This document shows, piece after piece, positions 22,663 to 37,492 of a stretch of 64,000 nt of DNA. Each line of letters starts with the position of its first letter. Position 1 is the first letter of the stretch. Position numbers and translations under genes: made by a program. The notes below the pieces were generated by a model that searched no databases, was not told where the DNA came from, and saw only the letters and a program-made list of their open reading frames with translations. Source of the DNA: Armatimonadia bacterium (GTDB lineage Bacteria > Armatimonadota > Zipacnadia > Zipacnadales > JABUFB01); the NCBI GenBank assembly GCA_039679385.1, contig JBDKVB010000070.1, forward strand, positions 1-64,000. Reading direction: 5' to 3'.

Positions 22663-25467
22663 TCAGGCGCCCGGCTCGACGCGCACACCGTCCTCAGAAG
22701 GAACCAGACGTGCCGGACGACCGTTGAGCGTGGCCTCGCGAGCAGAAAGGCCCACTGTCACGGTAGCCTGGTCGGCGAGGGGTGCATGGGGTGTCACGTC
22801 TTGCGTCACCTGCACCCGCAGGCTATCGCCGCTGAGCAGCGCCTCGGCAGTGCCCGGCTTCTGCAGAGACAGCAGCCGTGAGCCGCCATACTGCACGTAG
22901 CTGCCGCCCTTGAGGAAGACCCGTGCGGCCTTGCCCTGAGCGTCGAGTTGCACCACTGCCAACTCGCCGTCGGTGGTGACGTCGCCGGCGCTGGTCACCT
23001 TGCCGGGATCGCCGAAGACCACCAGGCTGCGTCGACCCTCAAGGAGCACGCTGAGACCGTTGCTGCCCAGGGAACTGGTCTCGATCTTCGGCGTCGGCTT
23101 CACGGGCACGTCGGCCTCGACCTGTGCTGCGTCGAACCAGGTGGTGCCCGGTCCGGAGAAGGTCAGCGCCAGGCAGATGTCCTCGGTGCCCTCTGGAACC
23201 GTCGTTGTGAGGATGTGCTCCTGCCAGTCAGGGTGTGCGAAGGGGCCGACGCTCTTGCTGGCAAAGGCTGTCCCGGCGCGCCAGAAGTAGAGGGTCATCA
23301 TCGCACCCCTGCCTTCCGGCAGTTGAGTGGTGCGAATCCTGGCCCGAGCCGTGATCTTTGTCCCCACAGGCAAGGAGAAGCGGGAGCTGTAGTAATACCC
23401 GCTCTTCTCAAGCTGGGCGCACTGACTGCCCTCAGCGGGGTTGTCCGTCACGATCTTGTGGTTCGGCCCGTCCTCGCCGCTGCGTATGATCCAGCCAGAC
23501 AGCCCGCGCTCGAAGCCACCGTTGCGCAGGATGGTGGGACTGGAGTAGGGGTGTGGCCACAGCAGCGCCGTGAAGGTCGCGGTGGTGGCAGGCTCCGTCT
23601 CGACCCGCAGGAAGGGGCCATAGTCCTCGGCGCCCGGATAGGTCTGGACGAAGGACTGCGTCTTCGTCGAGGCGGCGATCTGTGCGAAGACCTCCGACTG
23701 CGACCGTGTCACGTTGAAGGCGTCACCCTTCGGCGTGATCTCGGCCAGACCATCGGTGTGAAGCAGGAAGCTGTATCGGTGAGGCTTGGGCGCCGCGAGT
23801 TGGTCGCGGACTACGAAGAAGTCGGGCTTCACATACACGATTCCGCGGTCGAACTGCTCCAGCACCTTGAGGTCGTCGGTGTTGTAGGCATCGGCCGCGC
23901 GGCCCTTCACCCAGTCAAAGCCTTCTCCCGCGAAGAACTCGCTGATCTGGCCGCCGTAGCGCTTGACCTGATCGTGGCCCGCCGAAGGCACCTTGTTGTC
24001 GTGGAAGTAGGCGTCATCGAGATCGAGGACGACGGTGCAGTGGCCGATGCTGCCGAGGCTGAACTTGGTGCGCGGCGGCACGTAGAAGTCGTGGTAGCCA
24101 CGGTCGCAGATGACCCACTCGCCGGCCTCGCTGATGACGAAGGCGTTGTGGTCGAAGTGGTTGTGGCCGATGTTGTTGGTGAGCGGCCCGGACTTGAAGA
24201 ACAGGCTCGGCGCCTTCGCGTTGTACCCATCACGCAGAGAGGCGTAGCCAATGTCGACGAACACGCTGGAGGGATTCCAGGAGGGCCGCACCGGGTTCAG
24301 CCTGGCTTCGTCGAAGCGGACCAGGTCGTAGATGCCGCTGACCTTGAGGCCGCCGGCCTGCTCGAGGTAGTAGGCGGCCTCGGTGCTACCGCGCTGCGCC
24401 AGGACCTGCATCAACCGCAGGAAACCCACACCTGGCGAGCCGTCGCTGAAGTTGGGAATCTGATGCGTGTCGGGCGACAGGAGACCAAGGCAGTAGCGCG
24501 ACATCGTGGCAAGGTAGGGATGCTCGAAGAGGGTATGCTCGACCCGTGCCGAAGTCAGGGCATCGAAGGCGATGGCAAAGGAATCCAGCAGATAGGTTCC
24601 GTACATGGGGCCTTCGAAGGCGCCGCCGTCCTTGCCGCCACGGTCCAGCGAGGTCCGAATCTTCTCGACGCAAGTGGCCAGGGCCGCGCCAGCGCTGGGC
24701 TCCTCCGGTCGCACCGCGATCGCCGCCACCGCCGCACCGGTTGTCAGGACTGCATAGCCGTTCGTGTCGGGCGGGTACTTGTCGACCTCGCTGAGAATAG
24801 GATCGATGCCCTTGGTCAGGAGGGCGTCGCGGACTTGCTGCCGCTCCTGGGCGGAGAGGCGGTCGTAGCACCAGTCATAGAACATGCCCATCGCGTAGGT
24901 GCAATGGCCGGTGTCGAGGCAAGCCTTGATGCGCCCCGCGGTGTAGCTGGGATCGGTCCACTGGGACCAGTGCGTAAGGTGCAGGGCGATCTCGCGAGCC
25001 TTCTCGAAGTACTTGGTCTCGCCCGTCACCAGGTACGCAAAGCTGAAGTTGACGAGACGGGTTGTGATGGAGTCGCTGCGCTCCTGGAACATGGCGGTCC
25101 AGGGCGGATACGCCGGGCTCTTGTCATGGTTCGGGGGCGTCTGGTCGGAGAGCGTGTAGGACCAGTCTTCGAGGAACCCGACGGCAACACCGGGGATTCT
25201 GACCGAGTAGCTATAGGTCGGCTTCGCGGCAAGGGCGTCGGCCTGCTTCTTGATGTCGGCCCAGACGGAGGCGGTGTCGAAGCCGAACTTGTTCACCCGG
25301 CTGTCGGCACACTTGGCCCGCAGTGCGGCGAGACCGTCAGCACTCACCAGCACACAGGGGTGGGACTTGAGGCCTGTCATGTTGCCACTCTCCTGGGCCT
25401 TCGCCGTGGGGATCACGCAGAGGGCGGAGCCGGCAAGTAGCAGGGCAGTGACCAGTGGGACCCGCAT
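22663..25467 (-). CDS. Secreted heparinase II/III-family polysaccharide lyase-like protein
   Basis: The 934-residue protein has a signal peptide (MRVPLVTALLLAGSALCVIPTAKAQ). An alpha-barrel typical of alginate-lyase/heparinase N-terminal domains covers about residues 60-380. A beta-sandwich with the Heparinase_II_III signature follows: NNIGHNHFDHNAFV near 430, then WVICDRGYHDFYV. A jelly-roll module (about 650-800, NGGFERGLSGW) and a short tail complete it. The family cleaves uronic-acid polysaccharides such as heparin, heparan sulfate or alginate by beta-elimination (PL12, PL15, PL21 and relatives); the substrate here is not determinable. GAGGTG precedes the ATG at 25467. It is the first gene of the six-gene - strand run. 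Confidence 0.85.
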   Translation of the reverse strand: MRVPLVTALLLAGSALCVIPTAKAQESGNMTGLKSHPCVLVSADGLAALRAKCADSRVNKFGFDTASVWADIKKQADALAAKPTYSYSVRIPGVAVGFLEDWSYTLSDQTPPNHDKSPAYPPWTAMFQERSDSITTRLVNFSFAYLVTGETKYFEKAREIALHLTHWSQWTDPSYTAGRIKACLDTGHCTYAMGMFYDWCYDRLSAQERQQVRDALLTKGIDPILSEVDKYPPDTNGYAVLTTGAAVAAIAVRPEEPSAGAALATCVEKIRTSLDRGGKDGGAFEGPMYGTYLLDSFAIAFDALTSARVEHTLFEHPYLATMSRYCLGLLSPDTHQIPNFSDGSPGVGFLRLMQVLAQRGSTEAAYYLEQAGGLKVSGIYDLVRFDEARLNPVRPSWNPSSVFVDIGYASLRDGYNAKAPSLFFKSGPLTNNIGHNHFDHNAFVISEAGEWVICDRGYHDFYVPPRTKFSLGSIGHCTVVLDLDDAYFHDNKVPSAGHDQVKRYGGQISEFFAGEGFDWVKGRAADAYNTDDLKVLEQFDRGIVYVKPDFFVVRDQLAAPKPHRYSFLLHTDGLAEITPKGDAFNVTRSQSEVFAQIAASTKTQSFVQTYPGAEDYGPFLRVETEPATTATFTALLWPHPYSSPTILRNGGFERGLSGWIIRSGEDGPNHKIVTDNPAEGSQCAQLEKSGYYYSSRFSLPVGTKITARARIRTTQLPEGRGAMMTLYFWRAGTAFASKSVGPFAHPDWQEHILTTTVPEGTEDICLALTFSGPGTTWFDAAQVEADVPVKPTPKIETSSLGSNGLSVLLEGRRSLVVFGDPGKVTSAGDVTTDGELAVVQLDAQGKAARVFLKGGSYVQYGGSRLLSLQKPGTAEALLSGDSLRVQVTQDVTPHAPLADQATVTVGLSAREATLNGRPARLVPSEDGVRVEPGA

Positions 25468-25704
25468 GAGACACCTCAGCTTGTGAGTCGGATGGCACAC
25501 CTTCCGGAGGAGCCCTTCGTCGGGGTTCCTCCGGCGACCTGCCGAACTGGGCCCTGAGGTGCCACCTCGGTGGATTCGCCTGTGGCCAAGGAACCTTGCC
25601 GCGGGCGTGGAACCTTCTCCTAGTCATACGGACAAACAAACCTGAGAGGGCGGCGTTCCGGGTATCTGTATGCCCCGGAGGTGTCGCCCCAAGGAGCCTA
25701 CGGG

Positions 25705-26370
25705 ATGAAGCTGATTGCGATCATGGGAAGTCCCCGCGGGATGAAGGGCAGCACGGGCAAACTGCTGGACGCTCTCCTGAAGTCTGCCGAGGCAGCCGGC
25801 GCCGAGACAACGACCTTCGCACTGGGCAAGCTGAAGGTCGCCCCCTGCGTATCCTGCGACGCCTGCCACAAGGTCGGTCGGTGCGTAGTCAAGGACGACT
25901 TCCAGCAGGTGCTCGACGCGCTGCTTGAGGCAGACGGCTTCGTGCTGGCGAGTCCGAACTACATCTACAGCGTCAGTGCACAGATGAAGGCGCTCTTCGA
26001 CCGCTGCTGCGGACCGATCCACACGCAGGCCCTGGAGGGCAAGTACGGTGCTGCGGTGGTTAGCTCCGGCGGACCTGGCAACGAGGAAGTTGAGAAGTAC
26101 ATGCTCCGGTTCACCAACTCCCTCGGCGCCTGGGCAGTGGGGAGCACGGGTACCGATCTGGCGCACATCTTCAACCCCGAGAAGTTGCCGCAGGCCCTGC
26201 AGGCGGCTGCTGACCTGGGTACAAGTCTCGTCGAGGCTATTCGCACAGGCAAGACCTACCCCGAGCAAGAGCCGGGGCTGCAAGGCTTCCGCGAGTACAT
26301 GCGGAGCTGGCTCGTCACCCAGGGCGAGCGCTGGCCCTTCGAGGCACAGTACTGGAAGGACCGGAGCTAG
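25705..26370 (+). CDS. NAD(P)H-dependent FMN reductase / flavodoxin-fold protein
   Basis: The 221-residue protein begins KLIAIMGSPRG, the phosphate-binding loop of the FMN-reductase flavodoxin fold, and has SPNYIYSVSAQMKALFDR near residue 90, a conserved FMN-site block. CVSCDACHKVGRC (residues about 50-62) has a CxxCxxC arrangement like that of iron-sulfur flavoproteins, so it may also carry an iron-sulfur cluster. It probably reduces quinones, metals or an unidentified partner in the cytoplasm. AAGGAG lies eight bases before the ATG at 25705, which rules against the upstream in-frame GTG. It is divergent from the heparinase-like gene and convergent with the NPCBM-PDZ gene. Confidence 0.85.
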   Translation: MKLIAIMGSPRGMKGSTGKLLDALLKSAEAAGAETTTFALGKLKVAPCVSCDACHKVGRCVVKDDFQQVLDALLEADGFVLASPNYIYSVSAQMKALFDRCCGPIHTQALEGKYGAAVVSSGGPGNEEVEKYMLRFTNSLGAWAVGSTGTDLAHIFNPEKLPQALQAAADLGTSLVEAIRTGKTYPEQEPGLQGFREYMRSWLVTQGERWPFEAQYWKDRS

Positions 26371-26399
26371 GTCCATCTGCCGAGCTGTCGCCGACCAGG

Positions 26400-28223
26400 T
26401 CACCGGATGCGGAAGGTGCGGGCCACAGGAGGACGGTCGGCGCACTGGATGGAGACGTGGTAAGTGCCGGGCTGGAAGGGTCCCGTTGACGGTGCGAGCA
26501 GCAGCGCCGTGATCCGCCCGGTTCCCTCGATCAGACCTACGGCAAGACCACAACTGGCCGTCTCCCGGTACCACGTGACCAGCACCCGGGAGGCGGCCGG
26601 TGCGTTTTCGTACCACAGACAACAGGCAATCTGCTTCGCGTCGGTTCCGAACTCGCTGCCCGTCGCGACGGGTTGCGCCTGGTCATCAAGCCCCGTGCAG
26701 AGCACCACGTCGGTGAAGGGCGCCGTCACGTTCTCCGAGCCACCTGTCCAGTCTGAGGGCTTACGGTTCATGAGGCTGGGCAGGTCGAGGATGGACAGGT
26801 TCAGGGAGAGGGACTTGCCCCCTCTCATCAGGGCCAGCTTCGGCGTCGTGCGATCCTTGAAGGTTCCCACCACCTTGGCCAGAGTCGTGTCCGCGAGCGA
26901 CTTACCGCCGAGGGTCAGCAGTACATCGCCGGCCTGTAACCCCCACCAGGCCGCAAATCCACCAGACTGGAGGTCGTCCACCTGGATGGCCTTCTGGTCG
27001 AGCAACTCCCCGACGACCTTGCCGGTCAGGTCGCGCAGGATCTCGCGACCAAGTGACTTCAGCAGGTTGTCATCACCACCCGGGAGCAGGTCGTGGGGAA
27101 CTGTGCAGGCGCTCGTCTTGAGGGCCAGGAAGGTGCTGCCGCCGACGGGAATCCAGATGCGCGTGTCCTTGGACGGACGCGTGAGTAGTCTGGCGGGGAG
27201 ACTGGTGGCCACGACCTCGGGGACCGTCGGCGGGTTGTTGGAGAGCTTCGCCTCGGCCCAGTTGGCCTGGTCGTAGTAGATTCCGTCGCCCGCGTCGGTG
27301 GTCACCAGCTTGAGCTCGCGGGCTCCCAGGATCTCGACCTGCACCGGGAAAGGAGCGTCGCCGCTCCGGAGCGTTCCGCTGTTGAACACCCGGCGTCCGT
27401 CCAGGTAGACCTCGAACCCGCAACTGCCATAGGGCTTCACGGCAGCCTGGTCAACGCCCACCAGCGCAGTGAAGTACCGACGTCGCAGGCCGGTGAGGTC
27501 GTACACGATCTCCGAACTGGCGTGGGTGCCAAGGCCTCGGTCGAAGGTCGCAGTACCGATCCCCAGGCGACCGCCGGTGACGCTCTTGTCGGTGGCGGTT
27601 CTCCCCCATCCCCCTTCGCGCAGACTGGTAGGCTTGAGGCCGCCCAGGTAGATGTCAGGGCCCTCGTCATAGGTAGGGACCGTCGGCGGCTGCGGTGCCG
27701 GAGTCACCACGGGCGGCACAGAGACGGTCGGAGCCGACGGAGGTGGTGTGGTGACGGTTGGCGCTGTAGGCGGCGGAGTGACAGCAGGTGTCGGCGCGGC
27801 AACAGGTGGTACCGGGCTGACGGTGGCAGTCTCAAACCGGACCTTGCCGTCATCGTAGAAGACGTTGATGCCGGCCCCACCATGGTTGGCGGCAGAGCGG
27901 TCCTGTAGGAGTGGTCGCGGATGGGCCGCTGAGGCCGGCGAGAGGACGTAACCCGACCGCGCATCGAGTAGCTCGCGTCCAACAGAAGTGCTCGGGTCGC
28001 CCGGGCAGGCGAAGACTTCGAGATCCTCCACATAGGCCCGGTAGTACAGGAGCGAGAGCTGCCCGGGAGGCTGGCCCTGATTCTCGGCCATGAACATCTG
28101 ACAGGCGGTCCCCAGGCGCACCAGTCGCTCCGCACAGTCCTGCCGGTCATCTGCGCGGAGACCGGGAGCACAAGTTGCGACAAGGGCCACAAGCAGCACC
28201 GCATACGGTCGCTGACGCTTCAT
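26400..28223 (-). CDS. Exported protein combining a pilin-like display motif, NPCBM domain and PDZ domain
   Basis: The 607-residue protein has a signal peptide (RPYAVLLVALVATCAPGLRA). Residues about 25-125 resemble the body of H-X9-DG pilin-like proteins without the pilin helix (LGTACQMFMAENQGQ; NHGGAGINVFYDDG, one residue longer than the usual spacing). A Pro/Thr-rich linker (about 130-180) follows. An NPCBM carbohydrate-binding domain covers about 190-340 (YFTALVGVDQ and THASSEIVYDL are typical). A PDZ-like domain sits near 430-520 (FAAWWGLQAGDVLLTLGGKSL). No protease catalytic domain is present. GGAGGG lies six bases before the ATG at 28223. It starts 31 bases after the stop of the giant HEAT/kinase gene, so the two are probably co-transcribed. 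Confidence 0.7.
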   Translation of the reverse strand: MKRQRPYAVLLVALVATCAPGLRADDRQDCAERLVRLGTACQMFMAENQGQPPGQLSLLYYRAYVEDLEVFACPGDPSTSVGRELLDARSGYVLSPASAAHPRPLLQDRSAANHGGAGINVFYDDGKVRFETATVSPVPPVAAPTPAVTPPPTAPTVTTPPPSAPTVSVPPVVTPAPQPPTVPTYDEGPDIYLGGLKPTSLREGGWGRTATDKSVTGGRLGIGTATFDRGLGTHASSEIVYDLTGLRRRYFTALVGVDQAAVKPYGSCGFEVYLDGRRVFNSGTLRSGDAPFPVQVEILGARELKLVTTDAGDGIYYDQANWAEAKLSNNPPTVPEVVATSLPARLLTRPSKDTRIWIPVGGSTFLALKTSACTVPHDLLPGGDDNLLKSLGREILRDLTGKVVGELLDQKAIQVDDLQSGGFAAWWGLQAGDVLLTLGGKSLADTTLAKVVGTFKDRTTPKLALMRGGKSLSLNLSILDLPSLMNRKPSDWTGGSENVTAPFTDVVLCTGLDDQAQPVATGSEFGTDAKQIACCLWYENAPAASRVLVTWYRETASCGLAVGLIEGTGRITALLLAPSTGPFQPGTYHVSIQCADRPPVARTFRIR

Positions 28224-28254
28224 GCTCATCCCTCCACTCCGCAGGCGCACGCGG

Positions 28255-31200
28255 TCAGGCTGCACGCAGCAAGGGCCAGGCGATCGGCAGGTCGAACACC
28301 GCAGCGTCGGCAGCGGGCGTCGGCACGGGTACGACCAGCGGATCGTCCGCGGACCCGAAGCAGTCGCGCATCACGTCCCGCAGGACCCCGGCACGCTTGC
28401 GGACCACCTCCACCGCGTTGTCCAACTCGGCGCCGGAAAGGTGGCGGCCGAGAAGCGCCCGGAGCTTCTTCTCGTCTTTGCACAGGGCCTCGACCTGCTT
28501 GATCATCGGCTCCATGTCCTCGAAGGTAATGTGGTTGTCCAGCCACCCGAGCCCCCAGTGGTAGCGCGTCCCATCGAGGATCCTCGTACGCATGTACCCG
28601 GCGACCTCGTCAGCATCGACAAGTAGGCTGTACTCGCGGAAGTTCCGACCGGCGACGTCGGCCATGCCGTGGTCGATGCTCCAGATCCGGCCGTCGGCCG
28701 TGATGAGGTAGTTACCCAGGTGGCGGTCATGGTCGCCCAGCAGGGCAGCGAGGACCTTGTCGCGGGCGATCTGCTCCTTGAAGGCGATAGCCACCTCCTG
28801 GGGCAGGTCCTTGAGCTGGGTCCCGGGGACATAGCGCACTACGAGGCACTCCTTCTCGACGGTCTTCAGGACCCCGTTCGGGTCGAGTTCCTTGAGGCCC
28901 ATCTTGCCGACGGCACACTCCGGGACGTTCACCCCGCAGACTTCCTTGCCCAGTTCGTCCACCAGCTGCACCTCTTTGGCGAAGTCCGCGTAGACCTGTT
29001 CGCCACGCAGGTCGTAGTGGTCCGGGAAGTCCTTGCCCGAACCCTTGGCGACGGCAAGGGTCTCCTCGACACCCTTGGCGTCCCGGTACTTGACCCAGTG
29101 GGGGTCTGAATAGGTGGGGACTTCACCAGGCTTCGCCTGGCGTTCGAGGTATGTGTTGGCGTCGGAGTCGAGGGCGGAGATACCCTTGCGGGCCTCCTCT
29201 GGATCGGAACTGAGGGCAGCCTGCATACGGCGGGCTGCTGTCTCGTTCTGCGGTCCCTCGGGTACGGGGGCGCCAGAGGAGTAGTGCGCCCGGGCAACTG
29301 CGACGCCCTCGATGCGCTTGACCTCCTGGGCCATCCTCTGCACGGGCGGCGCGTCCGCCGTACCCAACTGACGCAGCACGGCGAGGCGCTGGTCGTACCC
29401 GGCGACTGCATCGCCCCACTCACCCTGGAGGACCATGCGCCTCAGGTCGCCGGCAAGGTTGTCCTTCACATGGAAGTCCAGGAGCGCGACCGTCCCAGGT
29501 TTCGCCCCCGGTACCGCCGCAGACCCAGCCTGGCGCAGACGATTCGCCAGAGCAGCGCTGCTCTCGGTGCAGCCGCCCCAGTAGCGAACGCGCTTCTCAA
29601 GCAGCTCCTGCCAGGCTCTGGCCTCGGGGATCGCCCCCGCCTCGACAGCGGCGCAAGCCTGCCGAGCAATCTGCAACTCCTCAAGTCTGCGCCAGGCGGC
29701 ACCAGCCTCTCCCTTGCGGAACTGTTCGCTGGCCTCGTCGAGCATGCGCTTGACCTGACCGCTCGTGGACTCCAGCGCCAGGCGAGCCTCCCCGGGGAGC
29801 GCGCCGTTCTCAGGCACGGCGTCCAGGACCTGTCGCAGCGCCTGGGAATGGCCGGTCCCCAGTTCAGCGGCCTCCTTCGCCGCAGTTGATGTCTGCTCAG
29901 AGGCCTCGATGAGCGCCCGCAGGTTTTCCGGAGTGATGCCGTGCTTCTCCATGCACGCCTTCATCACGTCTACGTCGCCCGCGCCCCAGGCGGTGAAGAG
30001 CTCAGCAAGCATTCGTCCCGCTTCGGCCTCCGTGCGCCCGTTGGAGCCTCTGAGAACGCCGATGGTGCCACCGGCTGCCTCACCCACCTTACCGGCGGCA
30101 AGCTGGATGCTCATATCCAGCGCACGGTCCTCCAGCCACGTGCTTTTGGCGAAGAACTGGGAGAACTGCTGAAGCACCTTCTGGCCGGCCGGGCTCTGGG
30201 CCAGCAACTGTGGGAGCTTGTTGAGGCCGACGGCCGCGGAGAAGGCCTCCTTGGCGGTCACGATGGCCTCGCCGACCGGCCGCGCCTCGCCGATCCAGCC
30301 CCAGCGAGGGAACCAGGCCACTTTGCCGCCTACTGTGTAGGTGCTCATCGGGGCCAGCATGGTGGCGACGTTCCACACGTTGATGGCATCGCCCAACCAC
30401 TGCAGTCTCGTCTCTTGATAGTCGCTCGTGTCGAAGTAGGGGGTGCCGGTGTCCACGTCCAGCATCTGCTTGGGTACAGTGAGGAGGCGCTTGACGTCGG
30501 GGTTGTTGTAGGCGGCCTTGATCGCCGCCCGCATCCGCAGCGCACCGTCGGTGTCTACCTTCGCACCGGCTCCGGGGTAGAGCTCGCGCACGAGGCCCAG
30601 GAAGTCGTCGTTGCTCAGAGCGTCGAGGTGGTCGATGCGGACCCCGCGCTCGTGGAGGCTCTTGAGCAAGAGGACCCCGCAGTGCTGCTTCGCCACGTCG
30701 TTTTGGAAGGAGGACGCAAGGGTCTCGAGGGCATTCTCCTTGCCCACGATTACGGCGCCGTCCTCCCTCATCACGATCGCTTCCGTGGAGCTGACCACGC
30801 CCATCTTGAGGTGAGCGATGAGGCTGGACAGCCAGCCCTCATCGCCGCCCTTGGCGAGCTTGTCGTCCAGCTCCGTGCGCAGGGAGGCTGCCTCGCCCTC
30901 GGCCTTCTGGTCAATGCGGTCAAGATAGGCGTGCTCGAGCATCCAGGCCATGCCCCGGGCGCGGTCACCAAGAGCCGACTTCTGGGAGGTCAGGCTCTCG
31001 CCCTCCTTGACCGTCCGAGAAGCCATGCGCTGCGCCTCGGGCAGCGTCAGCGCCTCCTCGGCGCTGCCCTCCGGCAAGGTGAGTTCCATGACTTTGCGGT
31101 AGCCGTGGAGGGCGTGCCGAAGATCGCCCTTGCTGTGGAAGTAGACCGCTTCCAGGTACCGTACCTGGGCCTCGTCCACGCCGGTGGCGAGAGCCTCACG

Positions 31201-34101
31201 TGCGGCTTCCCGGAACTCCTCGCCCTGTCCGGAAGCGATGTAGAGCTGGGCCTTCGCCAGAGCCCTCGCACGCTGCGCGTCGGCATAGGCTTTCTCGCAG
31301 CACTTCCGCGTCTGCTCCCAGGAGGACTTTGGGCCCTTCGCCTCGATCTCCAGCAGGATTCCGTCGTAGTAGGTGCCCAGGAGGTCGTTGACCATGCGGT
31401 CCTGCTCGCGCAGGATCTCCTCGTGTCGCACGGTAAGGCGGCGGATCTGCTCGCGGATGGCCTCGCGACCCATGTCCTCCACTCGGGGCCGCGGTCCCCA
31501 GCCGTCCTCCCAGGTGTCCATCGCCAGCCGGAAGGCGGCCTCCCAGTAGTTGGCGGATTCCGGGTCGGGCTGCTTGGCGAGGTAGTTGCGCAGGTACCCA
31601 AGGCGCTGACGGATCCGATCCGCCAACTCCGCCTGGGCACGGAGCAGGCTCAGCGCTTCCGCCTTCTTCTGCTCCGCGGTCACGAGCGCGTCCCACAGGT
31701 TGCCGATCCAGCGCTCCTCCAGTGAGCGCGAGTCGGAGAGGCGGTCCAGCGTGTCCCTCAGTTGCGCCAGCAGATCATCACGTTCTGCGGCGCCGCCCGC
31801 TACCTGCTCGGGAGTCTCCTCCTTCGGCAGCTCGGGATTCTCGGGCTCCGGTGGCAGAATGTCGTTCCACTCCGACCGCCACCATCCCGGCTGCGGCCAC
31901 TCATCATGGTTGCGGGGCTCGTTGAACTCCAGGGGACGCCCGGTCGCGTCGATCAGCGACGCCGCCTGTGCCAGCCAGCGGTCCTCGAAGGCCCAGAACC
32001 GGGCCACGTCGTTGCGGTAGGTGATGGAAGCCCCGGCGAGGGAGTGCCAGGCTGCCGCCCAGCCTGCCCAGCGCTGACGGTCCCAGAAGTCCTTGGAGGG
32101 TATAGGAACCTGGCGCAGCGCATCCTCGTAGTAGGCCATGCTCTCCAGCGCCATGGGCCACAGTCGCCCGTCGTTGATGACACCCACGGTGTAGCCAATT
32201 CCGCTGATCGTGGCGTTGTTGGCCGCACCCGGCGCATAGAGGCTGTGCGAGGTACGCAGGGCCGCAGCTGCGTCCTGCAGGTAGGGCATCACGTCGTCGC
32301 AGTCACGATCCGCCCAGCCGACAAGATTCAGCGCCGCGTCCCACAGCACACCGGCCAGACTCGCCCAGCGGGCAGCTCGCTCTTTCCGATACTCGCCGAG
32401 GCCAGGGTCGGGCGGCTGCTTGGAGTCAATGGATAGGATGGCCGACTCCGCGGCTCTGGCCACACCCCAGTTGGTGTCTTTGGTTAGCGGCTCAAGGGCG
32501 CTGCGGGCCGAAGCAGCCTGCACGCCATACCGGTCGAGCTTCTGTGCCGCCTTTGAGCGCGTCTCGGCCGCCGGAGCGTTGAGATCCGCGATCCAGGCAC
32601 TGATCGGCTTGTCCTCCTCCTCAAGCTCGCGGAGGAGCTGGCGGTCCGGGACACCAACATCAGCAGGTCCGCGGTACGCCGCCAGATGTGCCGGGATGTT
32701 GCCTTCGCGCTCGAACTTGAGCTCGTAGTCGAACTTCAGCCGGAAGCCCTCACAGGTGAAGACCTGGACCTGCACCTTGTAAGGCCCGTTGGTCAGCCGG
32801 TAGTGGGCACCGCCTCCCCACTTGTGCAGGCTCCCGGCGGCGTCATAGCGCAGGTGCTGGAACCGCGTCTGCCCGTTGCAGGTGACGGCGATCACGTGGT
32901 CCTTGAGGTAGGTCTTGTAGAAGGGGAACTTCGGCGCGATCTTCTCCCAGTCGGGGTCCTCGGAGCAGAGCTCGGCCAAGGGCGCGTTCCAGCGTAGGCC
33001 CCGCTTGCGGGCATCCTCACGGTAGCGCTTGAGCTCGGCCAGATCGAGGTAGCTGAGGGTAGCGAACTTGAACAGGTCTGCGGTGCTTCCGTTGCCGGTG
33101 CAACTGAGGTCGTCCTGCACTTCCGGGCCGTTCTCATCGCAGCCCTGGACGATATCGCTCAGGAAGAAGACTCGCCCCTCAGGTGGCGCAAGGGGCGGCT
33201 GGTCACTGGTGGCCTTTGCCGGTCGCCAGATCTGCGCAATAGCCCACTCGGCCTTCTGGCGAACCCTTACGTCGGCATCGGCACGAGCTCGTTCCAGGGC
33301 AGGGAGTGCCGGAATCGCCCTGGTGCCCATCTCGCCGAGGGACTGGGCAGCCCGGAGGCGCACCTCCGGGTTTGGGTCAGTGAGTGCGGCGATCAGCGCC
33401 GGGACTGAGGTCGCTTCCGGAGCCTCCGCAGAGGTCGTCCCCGGCGTTGCTGCAGGGGTCGTCGCAGTGCCCGCGCGAGGCTGCCTTCCTGTGGCTGCAG
33501 CAGTCCCCTGAGCCGGTCCCGTCGCACCGCCCTGAGCCGGTCCGCTGGGCTGTGCAGCGCCTTCGACGCCGCCCGTCCGCACGCCCTGCGTTCCCGAGCC
33601 GACCCCTTCGAGTTGCTTGAGGCCGGCCGAAGCCAGCCCTCGCACTGTCGCATCAGGGTCCTGCGAGGCAGTCTTGAGCAACCCGGCGGACACGCCGGAG
33701 GTGTCATGGAGGCAACTGGCCGCACGCACGGCGAACTGCCGGACAAGCGGGCTCGCATCCTGCAAGGCCGTGGCAGCAGTGCGGGCAGCCTCCGGGACCG
33801 CCGCCTTCACTCCAGCCAGCGCTGCAGCCGCGGTAAGCCGGACAGCCTCATCCTCGTCCTTCAGCCCTGCCGACAGCAAGGGCAGTGCAGACGCCGGCAC
33901 GGCTTTCAGACCGGCAAGCTGACGGAAGCCGCTGAGGCGCTCATAGTGGAGGCTGGACTGCAGCGACCGCGTCAGCGTAGGATCCAGCGGCTCGTCGCCG
34001 GGAGGTGCTGTCGGGGCTTGTGCGAAGGCAGGTAGGAGCCAGAGCAGAAGAGGCAGGAGCGTGGCAAGGACCAGGAGCAGGCATCGGTGAAGGCGGGCCA
34101 T
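28255..34101 (-). CDS. Giant exported protein: HEAT repeats, TPR-like region and C-terminal kinase-like domain
   Basis: The 1,948-residue protein has a signal peptide (LLLVLATLLPLLLWLLPAFAQA) and AGGAGGT before the ATG at 34101. HEAT repeats occur at about residues 40-150 (LPLLSAGLKDEDEAVRLTAA), 235-300 (ALTDPNPEVRLRAAQSLGE) and 510-560. A unique beta-rich region lies at 310-490 and a TPR-like helical region near 950-1010. The C-terminal 250 residues carry kinase-like motifs: a Lys in LAVAKGSGK, a catalytic loop GDHDRHLGN (residues 1789-1797) and a metal-binding SIDHG with Asp1810. This pattern is seen in PI3/4-kinase-like and HipA/Fam20-like atypical kinases. ATP-dependent action outside the cytoplasm would be unusual. 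It heads a unit with the NPCBM-PDZ gene. Target and activity are unknown; the kinase call is by motif. Confidence 0.7.
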   Translation of the reverse strand: MARLHRCLLLVLATLLPLLLWLLPAFAQAPTAPPGDEPLDPTLTRSLQSSLHYERLSGFRQLAGLKAVPASALPLLSAGLKDEDEAVRLTAAAALAGVKAAVPEAARTAATALQDASPLVRQFAVRAASCLHDTSGVSAGLLKTASQDPDATVRGLASAGLKQLEGVGSGTQGVRTGGVEGAAQPSGPAQGGATGPAQGTAAATGRQPRAGTATTPAATPGTTSAEAPEATSVPALIAALTDPNPEVRLRAAQSLGEMGTRAIPALPALERARADADVRVRQKAEWAIAQIWRPAKATSDQPPLAPPEGRVFFLSDIVQGCDENGPEVQDDLSCTGNGSTADLFKFATLSYLDLAELKRYREDARKRGLRWNAPLAELCSEDPDWEKIAPKFPFYKTYLKDHVIAVTCNGQTRFQHLRYDAAGSLHKWGGGAHYRLTNGPYKVQVQVFTCEGFRLKFDYELKFEREGNIPAHLAAYRGPADVGVPDRQLLRELEEEDKPISAWIADLNAPAAETRSKAAQKLDRYGVQAASARSALEPLTKDTNWGVARAAESAILSIDSKQPPDPGLGEYRKERAARWASLAGVLWDAALNLVGWADRDCDDVMPYLQDAAAALRTSHSLYAPGAANNATISGIGYTVGVINDGRLWPMALESMAYYEDALRQVPIPSKDFWDRQRWAGWAAAWHSLAGASITYRNDVARFWAFEDRWLAQAASLIDATGRPLEFNEPRNHDEWPQPGWWRSEWNDILPPEPENPELPKEETPEQVAGGAAERDDLLAQLRDTLDRLSDSRSLEERWIGNLWDALVTAEQKKAEALSLLRAQAELADRIRQRLGYLRNYLAKQPDPESANYWEAAFRLAMDTWEDGWGPRPRVEDMGREAIREQIRRLTVRHEEILREQDRMVNDLLGTYYDGILLEIEAKGPKSSWEQTRKCCEKAYADAQRARALAKAQLYIASGQGEEFREAAREALATGVDEAQVRYLEAVYFHSKGDLRHALHGYRKVMELTLPEGSAEEALTLPEAQRMASRTVKEGESLTSQKSALGDRARGMAWMLEHAYLDRIDQKAEGEAASLRTELDDKLAKGGDEGWLSSLIAHLKMGVVSSTEAIVMREDGAVIVGKENALETLASSFQNDVAKQHCGVLLLKSLHERGVRIDHLDALSNDDFLGLVRELYPGAGAKVDTDGALRMRAAIKAAYNNPDVKRLLTVPKQMLDVDTGTPYFDTSDYQETRLQWLGDAINVWNVATMLAPMSTYTVGGKVAWFPRWGWIGEARPVGEAIVTAKEAFSAAVGLNKLPQLLAQSPAGQKVLQQFSQFFAKSTWLEDRALDMSIQLAAGKVGEAAGGTIGVLRGSNGRTEAEAGRMLAELFTAWGAGDVDVMKACMEKHGITPENLRALIEASEQTSTAAKEAAELGTGHSQALRQVLDAVPENGALPGEARLALESTSGQVKRMLDEASEQFRKGEAGAAWRRLEELQIARQACAAVEAGAIPEARAWQELLEKRVRYWGGCTESSAALANRLRQAGSAAVPGAKPGTVALLDFHVKDNLAGDLRRMVLQGEWGDAVAGYDQRLAVLRQLGTADAPPVQRMAQEVKRIEGVAVARAHYSSGAPVPEGPQNETAARRMQAALSSDPEEARKGISALDSDANTYLERQAKPGEVPTYSDPHWVKYRDAKGVEETLAVAKGSGKDFPDHYDLRGEQVYADFAKEVQLVDELGKEVCGVNVPECAVGKMGLKELDPNGVLKTVEKECLVVRYVPGTQLKDLPQEVAIAFKEQIARDKVLAALLGDHDRHLGNYLITADGRIWSIDHGMADVAGRNFREYSLLVDADEVAGYMRTRILDGTRYHWGLGWLDNHITFEDMEPMIKQVEALCKDEKKLRALLGRHLSGAELDNAVEVVRKRAGVLRDVMRDCFGSADDPLVVPVPTPAADAAVFDLPIAWPLLRAA

Positions 34102-34483
34102 CGTGACCTCCTCCCGCCAAGCTCGGGGGCTCACCCCAATCGGAGTGTTCGGCCCGAACCTGGCTCACTCGCGCGGCCGGGTTACTCCCCGGAAAGCAAC
34201 CGGGCCCGTAGCGCCCTCCCTTGCTCAAGAGGTTCGCCGGTCGCGGGTCCCATCCTTTCGCCTGCCGGTATCTTAAGGCACAGCTAACACTCAGAGCCGC
34301 ACCTTTTGGCCCCTAGGATCGTCCAAGCGGAAGTGTAGGCCTCCCGGGGTGACCGCCCGAGCAGAGGGAGGCGTCGACCGCGGTGCGAGGGAATAGGTCT
34401 CTTGCAGGGTTCTCGAAGGGCCTCGTTGGCCCCCTGTTTCGGTGCGCCGCTCGTGAGCGCACGTGCTCGAAAGGAAGGATGTA
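34102..34483. other. 382-base divergent intergenic region, possibly with a structured leader
   Basis: No gene is seen here. The region must hold promoters for the giant HEAT/kinase gene (-) and the alkaline phosphatase gene (+), but I found no clear -35/-10 pair. Between about 34130 and 34290 the - strand contains several short complementary G/C segments, such as CCGGTTGC with GTAACCCGG and GGTTCGGGCCGAAC, so the leader of the giant gene may be folded. Comparison by eye with common riboswitches gave no match. Confidence 0.3.
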
Positions 34484-35866
34484 ATGTCTGGATCGCTACT
34501 GGGTTCTCGAAGACTGGGCCGCCGTGGTGCGGCGGCTGTGTGTGTGCTCCTCGGCCTGCTTGTTCTGTCGTCCTGCCAGGCGCAGGATCGTCCCGCTCCA
34601 AAGAACGTTATCGTGATGATCGCCGACGGGTGTGGGTTCCAGCACGTCAAGGCCGCCGGCTACTACCGATACGGTGACACAGGGAGGCTGTGCTATGAGA
34701 GCTTCCCCGTGCACCTTGCCATGAGCACCTTCCCCGCACAGAGCAAGGGCTATGACCCGGCAGCGGCCTGGCACAGCTTCGGCTATGTCATGCAGGGCCC
34801 CACGGATTCGGCGGCTGCTGCCACGGCCATGGCTACCGGCGTCAAGACACTGAACGGCCGGATTGGTGTAGGCCCGGACGACAAGGACCTGCCGAACTTC
34901 CTTGAGGGGGCGGCACAGACGGGGCGCTCAACGGGTGTGGTCACCACGGTGCCGCTGTGTCACGCCACACCGGCCGGCTTCTCCACGCATGACAAGGCAC
35001 GCGGCAACTATGCACAGCTCGCCAAGAGCATGCTGCTGTCCAGCTCGCTGGACGTGGTGATGGGCGCCGGCCATCCTCTCTTCGACAACAACGCACAGCC
35101 CCTGGAGCTGCCGAAGGAGGCCGACAAGCGTGAGGCCAGATTCCGCTACGTGGGCGGCGAGGAGACCTGGAAGGCACTGCTCGCCGGGACTGCCGGGAAG
35201 GATGTGGACGGCGACGGCAAGGGCGATCCGTGGAAGCTTGTGCAGACGCGGGCCGACTTCCAGGCTCTGGGTCAAGGAGCGACGCCGAGCCGGGTCCTCG
35301 GTGTAGCCCAGGTAGCTGAGACGCTGGAGCAGGGACGCACCGGCGACAAGAAGGCGGACCCGTATGTCGTGCCGATGAACGATGCGGTGCCAACGCTGGC
35401 CGAGATGACTCGCGCGGCCCTGAACGTACTGGATGACAACCCGAAGGGCCTCTCGATCATGATCGAGGGCGGAGCGGTAGACTCGGCCGCCCATGCCAAC
35501 CAGTCGGGACGGATGATCGAGGAACTGCTGGCCTTCGAGGATGCCGTCTCGGAGGTCGTGAAGTGGGTGGAGAGCCACGGTGGCTGGGACCAGACGCTGC
35601 TGATCGTCACCTGCGACCACGAGACAGGTTACCTGACCGGTCCGGGCTCAGACCCCGGCTGGGAGCCGCTGGTGAACAACGGGATCGGCAAGCTGCCGGG
35701 GATGGAATGGCACTACGTCAGCCACACCAACAGCCTCGTCCCGTTCTTCGCAAAGGGTAAGGGCGCGGAGCGCCTTGTGGCCTGTGCAACCGGTCAAGAC
35801 CCCATCCGGGGCGCCTACCTGGACAACACAGACATCGCCAAGACTATCTTCGCTCTGCTGAAGTAG
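34484..35866 (+). CDS. Alkaline phosphatase (PhoA superfamily), predicted lipoprotein
   Basis: The 460-residue protein has a lipoprotein-type signal with LVLSSC as lipobox, so it is probably anchored in the cell envelope. The alkaline phosphatase signatures are all present: a metal Asp in VIVMIADGCG, the nucleophile Ser109 in PTDSAAAATAMATG, HATPAGFSTHD, EGGAVDSAAHANQ with metal ligands, CDHETGYLTG and a late His in SHTNSLVPFF. It hydrolyses phosphate monoesters, or diesters in some relatives, with two zinc ions. AAGGAAGGA lies four to five bases before the ATG at 34484. It is monocistronic and ends in a strong terminator. Induction by phosphate starvation would be typical, but no Pho box was recognised. 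Confidence 0.92.
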   Translation: MSGSLLGSRRLGRRGAAAVCVLLGLLVLSSCQAQDRPAPKNVIVMIADGCGFQHVKAAGYYRYGDTGRLCYESFPVHLAMSTFPAQSKGYDPAAAWHSFGYVMQGPTDSAAAATAMATGVKTLNGRIGVGPDDKDLPNFLEGAAQTGRSTGVVTTVPLCHATPAGFSTHDKARGNYAQLAKSMLLSSSLDVVMGAGHPLFDNNAQPLELPKEADKREARFRYVGGEETWKALLAGTAGKDVDGDGKGDPWKLVQTRADFQALGQGATPSRVLGVAQVAETLEQGRTGDKKADPYVVPMNDAVPTLAEMTRAALNVLDDNPKGLSIMIEGGAVDSAAHANQSGRMIEELLAFEDAVSEVVKWVESHGGWDQTLLIVTCDHETGYLTGPGSDPGWEPLVNNGIGKLPGMEWHYVSHTNSLVPFFAKGKGAERLVACATGQDPIRGAYLDNTDIAKTIFALLK

Positions 35867-35953: not shown

Positions 35954-37279
35954 TCAGTCCTGGCGCGGCTTCTGCCAGGGCACCTCTCCGCCTTGCTGGA
36001 TATGGAGCATGAGGGCTACGAGGAGTTCCTTGAAGCGCTCTGGTTCGGTCTGGGCCAGATTCTGCGCTTCCAGCGGATCGGCCGACAGGTTGTACAGCTC
36101 CAGGGCCGCATAGGGGCTGTCGTGAAGGAGCTTCCAGTCGCCCCGACGCACCGCCTCGATGGTCAGCCCACAGTAGGGACGCCCGCCCTCGCGACGCACG
36201 AAGTAGAGCTCGCGGTCCGTCGGGCTCTGCTCACCCAGCATCGCAGGTAGCAGGCTGGCGCCGTCGATGCCCGGATTCGGCTCGACACCGGCGGCTGACA
36301 GGAGTGTCGCGTACAGGTCCATCGTCAGCGCGGGATCAAGGAGGCGACTGCCTGCCGGTATGTGTCCCGGCCAGCGTGCGGCACAGGGCACTCGCAGCCC
36401 GCCCTCATAAACATGCCCCTTCTCGCTGCGCCAGGGCCCGTTGTTGGCACCGTTGCGAAGCACTCCCCCGTTGTCCGAGTTGAAGACCACAAGGGTGTCC
36501 TGCGCAAGACCGAGTTCGTCGAGGGTACCCAGGACACGACCGATTCCGTGGTCGAGGTGCTCGATGAGGGCTATCAGGCGCTGCCGTTGGGGACCGATGT
36601 TCGGCTCGCGTTGCTGCACTCGGGCCAGCCAGTCCTCCGGCGGCTGGATGGGGTCGTGCGGCGCGTTGTAGGCCAGATACAGGAAGAAGGGCTCCTCCTG
36701 GCCGGCGCGTTCGTGGAGGTAGTCGCAGGCCCAGTCCGTGAACAGGTCGGTGGCATGGCCCTGCGGCTCGATCACCTCACAGTCACGCCGCAGGAAGTTC
36801 ACGCCGCCGCGCAGATGGGTGTAGTAGTCATCCATCATGTCGCCAAGGAAGCCGTGGAAGAACTCGAAACCCCTCTCGCCGGGCAGGTTCGGCGTCTCCA
36901 GGCCGAGGTGCCACTTGCCGACCAGGGCCGTGTGGTAACCCGCAGGGGCAAGTCTCTGGGGAAGCAGCACGGCGGAGGGAGAAAGGTATCCCCAGGAGTC
37001 CTCGGGCCACTGGCGGATTACCCCGGGCACTCCCACACGGTCGGGGTAGCAGCCGGTCATCAGCGACGCACGTGAGGGAGAGCACACCGGGCTGTTCGCG
37101 AAAAAGTTGACGAAGTCGACGCCCTCGTGGAAGACGCGGTCGATATTTGGGGTGCGCAGGTCGGGCGTGCCGAAGGCGCTGTAGTCGCCGCGCCCCAGGT
37201 CATCCACGAGGATCATGAGCAGATTGGGTCGCCGCGTCTGGGCCGGTGTCTCGGCGAGTGGGGTGTTCTGGGCGGGCAT
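35954..37279 (-). CDS. Type I (Cys-type) sulfatase without signal peptide
   Basis: The 441-residue protein has the sulfatase signature CSPSRASLMTG with Cys66, the residue converted to formylglycine. Metal-binding ILVDDLGRGDYS lies near residue 20, YHTALVGKWHLG near 115 and VVFNSDNGG near 270. It belongs to the arylsulfatase A-like family and would remove sulfate esters from glycans or small molecules. GGAGG lies six bases before the ATG at 37279. An in-frame upstream extension to 37372 would not add a signal peptide either. A cytoplasmic sulfatase suggests action on imported sulfated sugars. No maturase (FGE or CX3CX2C anSME) is seen in the window. It is divergent from the sensor kinase cluster. 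Confidence 0.9.
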   Translation of the reverse strand: MPAQNTPLAETPAQTRRPNLLMILVDDLGRGDYSAFGTPDLRTPNIDRVFHEGVDFVNFFANSPVCSPSRASLMTGCYPDRVGVPGVIRQWPEDSWGYLSPSAVLLPQRLAPAGYHTALVGKWHLGLETPNLPGERGFEFFHGFLGDMMDDYYTHLRGGVNFLRRDCEVIEPQGHATDLFTDWACDYLHERAGQEEPFFLYLAYNAPHDPIQPPEDWLARVQQREPNIGPQRQRLIALIEHLDHGIGRVLGTLDELGLAQDTLVVFNSDNGGVLRNGANNGPWRSEKGHVYEGGLRVPCAARWPGHIPAGSRLLDPALTMDLYATLLSAAGVEPNPGIDGASLLPAMLGEQSPTDRELYFVRREGGRPYCGLTIEAVRRGDWKLLHDSPYAALELYNLSADPLEAQNLAQTEPERFKELLVALMLHIQQGGEVPWQKPRQD

Positions 37280-37492
37280 CGAGGGCCTCCAAGTTCGTAG
37301 GATGGCGCAACCGACCAGTCGGTGAAGGCCGGTCAGAGGCGCGAGGCTGTCGCAGCTATTCGCAGGCTGCACGTCCAGGACCTTCGCCTCCGACGGCAGG
37401 AGTTGGGCTCACGCCGGCGAAGTCAAGCCCGTACTGGGAAGGGCCGCAGCACGGGCCGGTGCCCGGGTAGACTATCACCGGCGAGAGGCGGT

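Follow-up and report, generated by a model that had tools for sequence, protein, structure and literature searches.

The window, by which we mean the whole stretch of 64,000 nucleotides analyzed, carries on its minus strand a gene at 28255..34101 (stop codon at 28257-28255) whose open frame translates into an exported-type protein of 1,948 residues with HEAT repeats, a helical region and a kinase domain. These are exactly the limits and the length given in an initial annotation made from the sequence alone, which had named no strand. A single-frame homologue of 1,848 residues, 51% identical to the window protein, is present in another genus (genome G002), so the frame does not arise by chance. 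The gene is single-copy in its own genome, a 5.6 Mb assembly of the phylum Armatimonadota in which one full-length match was found. From the N to the C terminus the protein has a Sec-type signal, HEAT repeats, a long helical middle that includes a TPR-like stretch, and a kinase domain.

Signal peptide, repeats and helical middle

The N terminus has the form of a classical Sec-type signal peptide covering residues 1-27 (34021..34101, minus strand as for all features of this gene) and reads MARLHRC-LLLVLATLLPLLLWLLPAFA|QA, with the likely cleavage at AFA|Q, an A-X-A site after residue 27. Hydropathy reached a peak of 2.51 at residue 8 and no other segment of the window protein exceeded 1.6; among the homologues the highest internal peak was 1.59, in G002. 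The signal peptide proposed in the initial annotation is kept by its relatives, all seven homologues with an intact N terminus having a signal-like start with charged, hydrophobic and small-residue parts. Export was judged here from hydropathy and the cleavage motif and not by a trained predictor, and hydropathy by itself cannot prove it; the conserved N-terminal signal places the protein among the putative Sec-exported proteins. If this is right, the kinase domain would be extracytoplasmic, and how it obtains ATP becomes the main difficulty of the model. We know of no ATP source outside the cytoplasm of such a cell, where ATP is not expected.

HEAT repeats, also claimed initially, are real, with Pfam E-values of 4.3e-19 for HEAT_2, in three stretches, and 3.2e-14 for HEAT. 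The first block (residues about 50-165, 33607..33954, limits set by eye) is covered by several HEAT and HEAT_2 stretches and includes sub-threshold Pfam matches to Cnd1 and Adaptin_N at residues 73-131. The second block (residues 227-289, 33235..33423) holds the best HEAT_2 stretch and is kept in G002. A possible third block (residues about 500-558, 32428..32604) was read by eye and falls into an alignment gap in the G002 homologue. The conserved and mostly helical middle, residues 780-1500 (29602..31764), was delimited from alignments and is common to homologues with and without HEAT repeats. It matched no Pfam or NCBIfam family over cut-off and contains no known domain; its predicted model was all-helical at low confidence (pLDDT 57) and gave no structure match with E<=0.001. 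Within it, the TPR-like part of the initial annotation is retained as a weak PilW match (E 0.16, residues 945-1008, 31078..31269) in a stretch that is helical in this low-confidence model. PDB profile matches to 'Pizza' propellers and to LexA were rejected as chance matches of short motifs.

At the extreme C terminus (28258-28272, minus strand) the protein ends in LLRAA, and similar endings are seen in the L007, L008, L009, L010 and L022 open reading frames. Altogether six copies from both families described below end alike, in LLRAA, ALRAA, ALRAA, LREAA, RLKAA and WRQAA, after variable residues. Judged by sequence, this ending could serve in sorting or processing, or the likeness could be fortuitous.

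Predicted fold and active site of the kinase domain

An atypical kinase domain was located at residues about 1650-1905 (28387..29154) by an AlphaFold2 model, Foldseek and sub-threshold family matches. Residues 1618-1948 were modeled from a six-sequence alignment with a pLDDT of 73 and a pTM of 0.76. Foldseek returned 274 PDB matches with E<=0.001, of which the catalytic domain of PI4KII-alpha was the first (E 1.6e-6, probability 1.00, TM 0.50); the next matches included Vps34 and the HipA-like kinase CtkA (E 8.3e-5, TMt 0.50). A TM of 0.50 with an rmsd near 7 corresponds to agreement at the level of the fold, not of the subfamily. Against viral models the best fold match was a halovirus PI3K/PI4K-like protein. 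The predicted domain thus has the two-lobed kinase fold of the protein kinase-like (PKL) superfamily, as had been anticipated from its motifs.

Sequence searches alone were suggestive of a kinase, and it is the predicted structure that decides the fold. In Pfam the kinase region gave ABC1 (E 0.0015) and PI3_PI4_kinase (E 0.0023), both below cut-off. The latter, PF00454, scored 18.3 bits against a gathering cut-off of 27.1 (19.1 bits for G002) and matched over ~40 residues, the remainder being unrelated. The best NCBIfam match, to the uncharacterized kinase-like TIGR03843/SCO1664 (E 0.0011, residues 1767-1814), reached 18.4 bits against a cut-off of 172.4, with a model of 253 positions that has no counterpart of the signal peptide or scaffold. 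HipA_C was absent from the window protein at E<=1; two homologues gave it scores of 13.4 and 16.5 bits, where the cut-off is 30.5. The cut-offs of PF00454, HipA_C and TIGR03843 are all missed, and the kinase can therefore be filed in none of them, nor can its specificity be read from them. HMMER detected no sequence match to PI4KII. A sequence search of the PDB returned Vps34-type PI3-kinases at E 0.12-0.3 with the catalytic loop and the DFG motif in register, LLGDHDRHLGNYLITADGRIWSIDHG aligning directly with a 26-letter stretch of Vps34. The initial annotation had left open a PI3/4K-, HipA- or Fam20-like kinase. The first two readings hold up, and Fam20 is less close: neither Fam20C nor CotH appeared in the Pfam scan at E<=1 or among the best 50 Foldseek matches. 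CotH and Fam20 kinases are likewise kinase folds tied to secreted products.

The active-site residues could be placed individually. The catalytic loop GDHDRHLGN spans residues 1789-1797 (28711..28737), with Asp1792 and Asn1797, and aligns to DRHLDN of Vps34. The motif SIDHG at residues 1808-1812 (28666..28680) aligns to HIDFG of Vps34, Asp1810 being the metal-binding, DFG-equivalent residue. This numbering agrees with the initial annotation, and Asp1792, Asn1797 and Asp1810 proved invariant among the homologues aligned, as did Gly1812. Two further invariant residues, which had not been placed before, are the beta3 lysine Lys1686 (29044..29046), at the end of strand 62-69 of the model, and the alphaC glutamate Glu1701 (28999..29001), within helix 79-93. 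In the six-row alignment, made up of the window protein, G001, the shorter G003 copy and three members of a second family, invariance is limited to 21 of 331 positions, all six of these residues being among them. Under random placement the chance of this is ~3e-8, a figure that ignores the commoner conservation of some residue types. The G002 homologue and the long G003 homologue retain the six residues too. Outside the Asp and Asn the loop varies, G001 having DHDRRPAN instead of DHDRHxGN.

By sequence, the full catalytic set of Lys, Glu, Asp, Asn and Asp expected of the PKL superfamily is present, and since these residues and Gly1812 are invariant the domain is probably an enzyme and not a pseudokinase. 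Of the two alternatives given in the initial annotation the pseudokinase is thereby disfavored, and export, activity and substrate keep the conditional standing they had. Neither outcome that this annotation had named as refuting it, a model lacking the two-lobed kinase fold or homologues lacking the Asp and Asn residues, was observed.

Relatives and neighboring genes

Two profiles run against 291 Armatimonadota genomes found the domain in seven only, namely all four of the window's own family and three of a distant family. The long form with HEAT repeats (1,848-1,948 residues) is intact in the window's genome (G000) and in G002; in G003 it lies on a short contig, broken into two frames, and in G001 the contig end truncates it. 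A short form without HEAT repeats (1,141-1,240 residues) is represented by a second copy in G003 and by the three copies of the distant family. Long and short forms share the helical middle and the kinase domain, about 20-50% identical, so that these two parts have been conserved as a pair in both Armatimonadota families. The scattered occurrence is suggestive of loss or of lateral transfer. A search of the named-genome collection returned the same organisms only. It used a single middle-region pattern, and for this reason kinases of this type may occur on other scaffolds and in other phyla. No match was obtained in a scan of viral contigs with a single kinase domain or in a search of plasmid proteins.

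The nearest outside sequences, phrog_37179 (E 0.00077) and tblastn matches of 29-36% identity, are PI3/4K-like and located in the head modules of tailed viruses. On the IMG/VR contig L036 (3489-5435, plus strand) a PI3/4K-like domain, with PF00454 over cut-off at 3.1e-6, is fused behind a head-morphogenesis part (phrog_241), and in haloviruses such as Haloarcula virus HCTV-6 (gp16, L045:2422-3894) such a domain is encoded between head-completion and tail genes. Both phrog_37179 and the halovirus 'phosphatidylinositol kinase' proteins belong to virion head/tail modules, and no HEAT scaffold was seen in them.

About 25 bases downstream of the kinase gene and co-oriented with it lies a gene (26400..28229, minus strand, start placed at MSMKRQ) for an exported-type protein with a pilin-like start and NPCBM/NEW2 and PDZ domains (Pfam NPCBM 6.4e-38, PDZ 0.0011). 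A PDZ gene is also found 3' of the kinase gene in G001 and of the second copy in G003, and the NPCBM/PDZ protein is a likely partner of the exported kinase, with which it would form a complex. In G002 and G003 the long copy instead has a BamB-like propeller gene immediately upstream. In all three genomes of the distant family the short-form kinase gene is directly preceded by a gene for a 780-residue protein. This protein, of exported type and conserved (L020:1271-3673, L021:4136-6472 and L022:4023-6371, plus strand), contains internal repeats DW[VI].Y.T...WLHIGTR; one member was scanned and gave no Pfam match. No partner gene is constant across all kinase copies. A 332-residue open reading frame (25624-26622, minus strand) was rejected as a third operon gene, as it lacks a signal and matched no family over cut-off. 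Divergent from the kinase gene is an alkaline phosphatase gene (34463-35866, plus strand), followed by a sulfatase gene (35954-37372, minus strand). A phosphatase adjoining an exported kinase is suggestive of a possible relation; the phosphatase gene does not adjoin the kinase genes of those relatives whose surroundings were read.

The window's own genome also encodes a second exported kinase-like protein (L037:580-1971, plus strand, corresponding to contig C136, about 24091-25482), in which a signal peptide and TPR repeats precede a Fam20-like domain (GNMDRFSGGN...FIDNSEAFG). Its matches were Pfam Fam20C at E 0.19 and, as the best in the PDB, C. elegans H03A11.1 at E 0.44. A homologue in G016 (L042:1489-2382, minus strand) has 297 residues and a signal peptide, lacks the TPR repeats and is 62% identical over the domain.

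Place among known kinases, proposed function and alternatives

Eukaryotic PIKKs of the ATM and mTOR type consist of an N-terminal HEAT solenoid, a helical TPR-like middle and a C-terminal PI3K-like kinase. The window protein follows this plan, according to the Pfam HEAT matches and the fold search, in that a HEAT solenoid precedes a C-terminal PI3K-like kinase. Membership of the PIKKs was nevertheless rejected, as FAT and FATC were both absent in the Pfam scan at E<=1 and the fold is closest to PI4KII. Since FAT and FATC are missing and the short-form homologues have no HEAT repeats, the likeness is probably convergent rather than due to descent. PI4KII itself is cytoplasmic and palmitoylated and has neither a HEAT/TPR scaffold nor a signal peptide. 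A difference from HipA is that no HipB-type antitoxin gene was found beside the window gene, whose neighbors encode the NPCBM/PDZ protein and the alkaline phosphatase. The window kinase has a Sec signal, whereas the activity of CtkA of H. pylori depends on a type IV secretion system (PMC5536186).

Secretory-pathway kinases, Fam20C among others, are well known in animals. To our knowledge few bacterial kinases lie outside the cytoplasm, and Sec-exported ones whose active site is intact have hardly been described. A literature search of incomplete coverage turned up none, neither of the present type nor of another. In a survey of the Legionella kinome, a kinase-methyltransferase was proposed as possibly decorating secreted factors, and the modification by a NoeA homologue was placed in the cytoplasm before secretion (PMC9758233).

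We read the protein as a member of a family of exported scaffold-kinases, which would be a novel form of the known PI3/4K-HipA kind of kinase and for which we infer export, an extracytoplasmic ATP supply and a substrate. It would leave the cytoplasm via the Sec pathway and reside in the envelope or extracellularly, where the HEAT repeats and the long helical, TPR-like middle would form a docking solenoid. The PI4KII/HipA-like domain would hold ATP, or whichever nucleotide is used, through Lys1686 and Glu1701 and a metal on Asp1810, and would use Asp1792 for phosphate transfer to a substrate in the envelope that the scaffold or a partner protein holds in place. Candidate substrates are glycans, lipids and proteins, the last perhaps including the co-encoded NPCBM/PDZ protein. 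Taking the sequence, predicted fold, active-site residues, signal, conservation and neighboring genes into consideration, we favor such an exported scaffold-kinase, with a docking solenoid and phosphotransfer activity, with reasonable though far from full confidence. Its export is supported by the neighbors, which are of exported type too (the NPCBM/PDZ protein, the BamB-like propeller and the 780-residue protein).

The alternative that survives best, while distinctly less probable, is an exported pseudokinase, in which the fold would bind a nucleotide or another ligand solely for structural or sensing purposes, leaving the work to the scaffold. ATP is not expected where such a protein would reside, no glycine-rich loop is recognizable, and the residues around the Asp and Asn vary between copies. 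Pseudokinases, however, usually lose one of Lys, Glu, Asp, Asn, Asp and Gly, and here all of them stand among the few invariant positions of an otherwise variable domain. A less probable alternative, to which we give little weight, is a secreted effector, in which an exported carrier would bring a C-terminal kinase of the HipA/CtkA type into neighboring or host cells to act there. Target cells contain ATP, which would remove the difficulty over its source; polymorphic toxins likewise have their toxin domain at the C terminus, and the fold matches include CtkA, itself a delivered kinase. Hydrophobic stretches rich in Gly frequently precede the toxin part of polymorphic toxins, and the middle region here has such stretches. 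Against this, kinase and carrier are conserved together without a swap of the C-terminal domain among the eight copies, the next gene encodes the exported-type NPCBM/PDZ protein and not a small immunity-like protein, and PADLOC gave nothing beyond a weak HEAT match. The polymorphic-toxin class was demoted on the same grounds, with the same kinase in 8 of 8 copies and no immunity-like gene after the window copy, and a defense role was dropped because of the PADLOC result.

It is improbable that the domain transfers AMP or glutamate instead of phosphate to an envelope target. SelO and SidJ are kinase folds that do so and specificity is not predictable from the sequence here, but each of the closest folds (PI4KII, Vps34 and CtkA) is that of a phosphotransferase and shares the D..N..D arrangement. 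Least probable of all is that the N-terminal hydrophobic stretch does not export the rest and that the protein stays in the cytoplasm or tethered to the membrane. The kinase would then have ATP, and hydropathy alone is no proof of export, but every homologue with an intact start has a signal-like N terminus with a cleavage motif, the large remainder has no second clear membrane span, and the neighbors are of exported type.

In its boldest form, and only tentatively, the exported scaffold-kinase can be pictured as a bacterial PIKK-like machine outside the cytoplasm, whose HEAT/TPR solenoid would gather envelope proteins or glycans and phosphorylate them there with ATP or another donor. The protein also shows that the combination of a HEAT scaffold with a PI3/4K-like kinase, familiar from the ATM/mTOR-type kinases of eukaryotes, occurs in a bacterium. 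If the kinase is active, bacteria would modify envelope or extracellular molecules by phosphorylation, and a source of ATP must exist there; the defined domain with its mutable residues allows this question of extracytoplasmic ATP and phosphorylation to be tested. The PIKK-like machine, if true, would be a new extracytoplasmic phosphorylation route in bacteria, with a parallel within Armatimonadota in the second exported kinase, the Fam20-like one.
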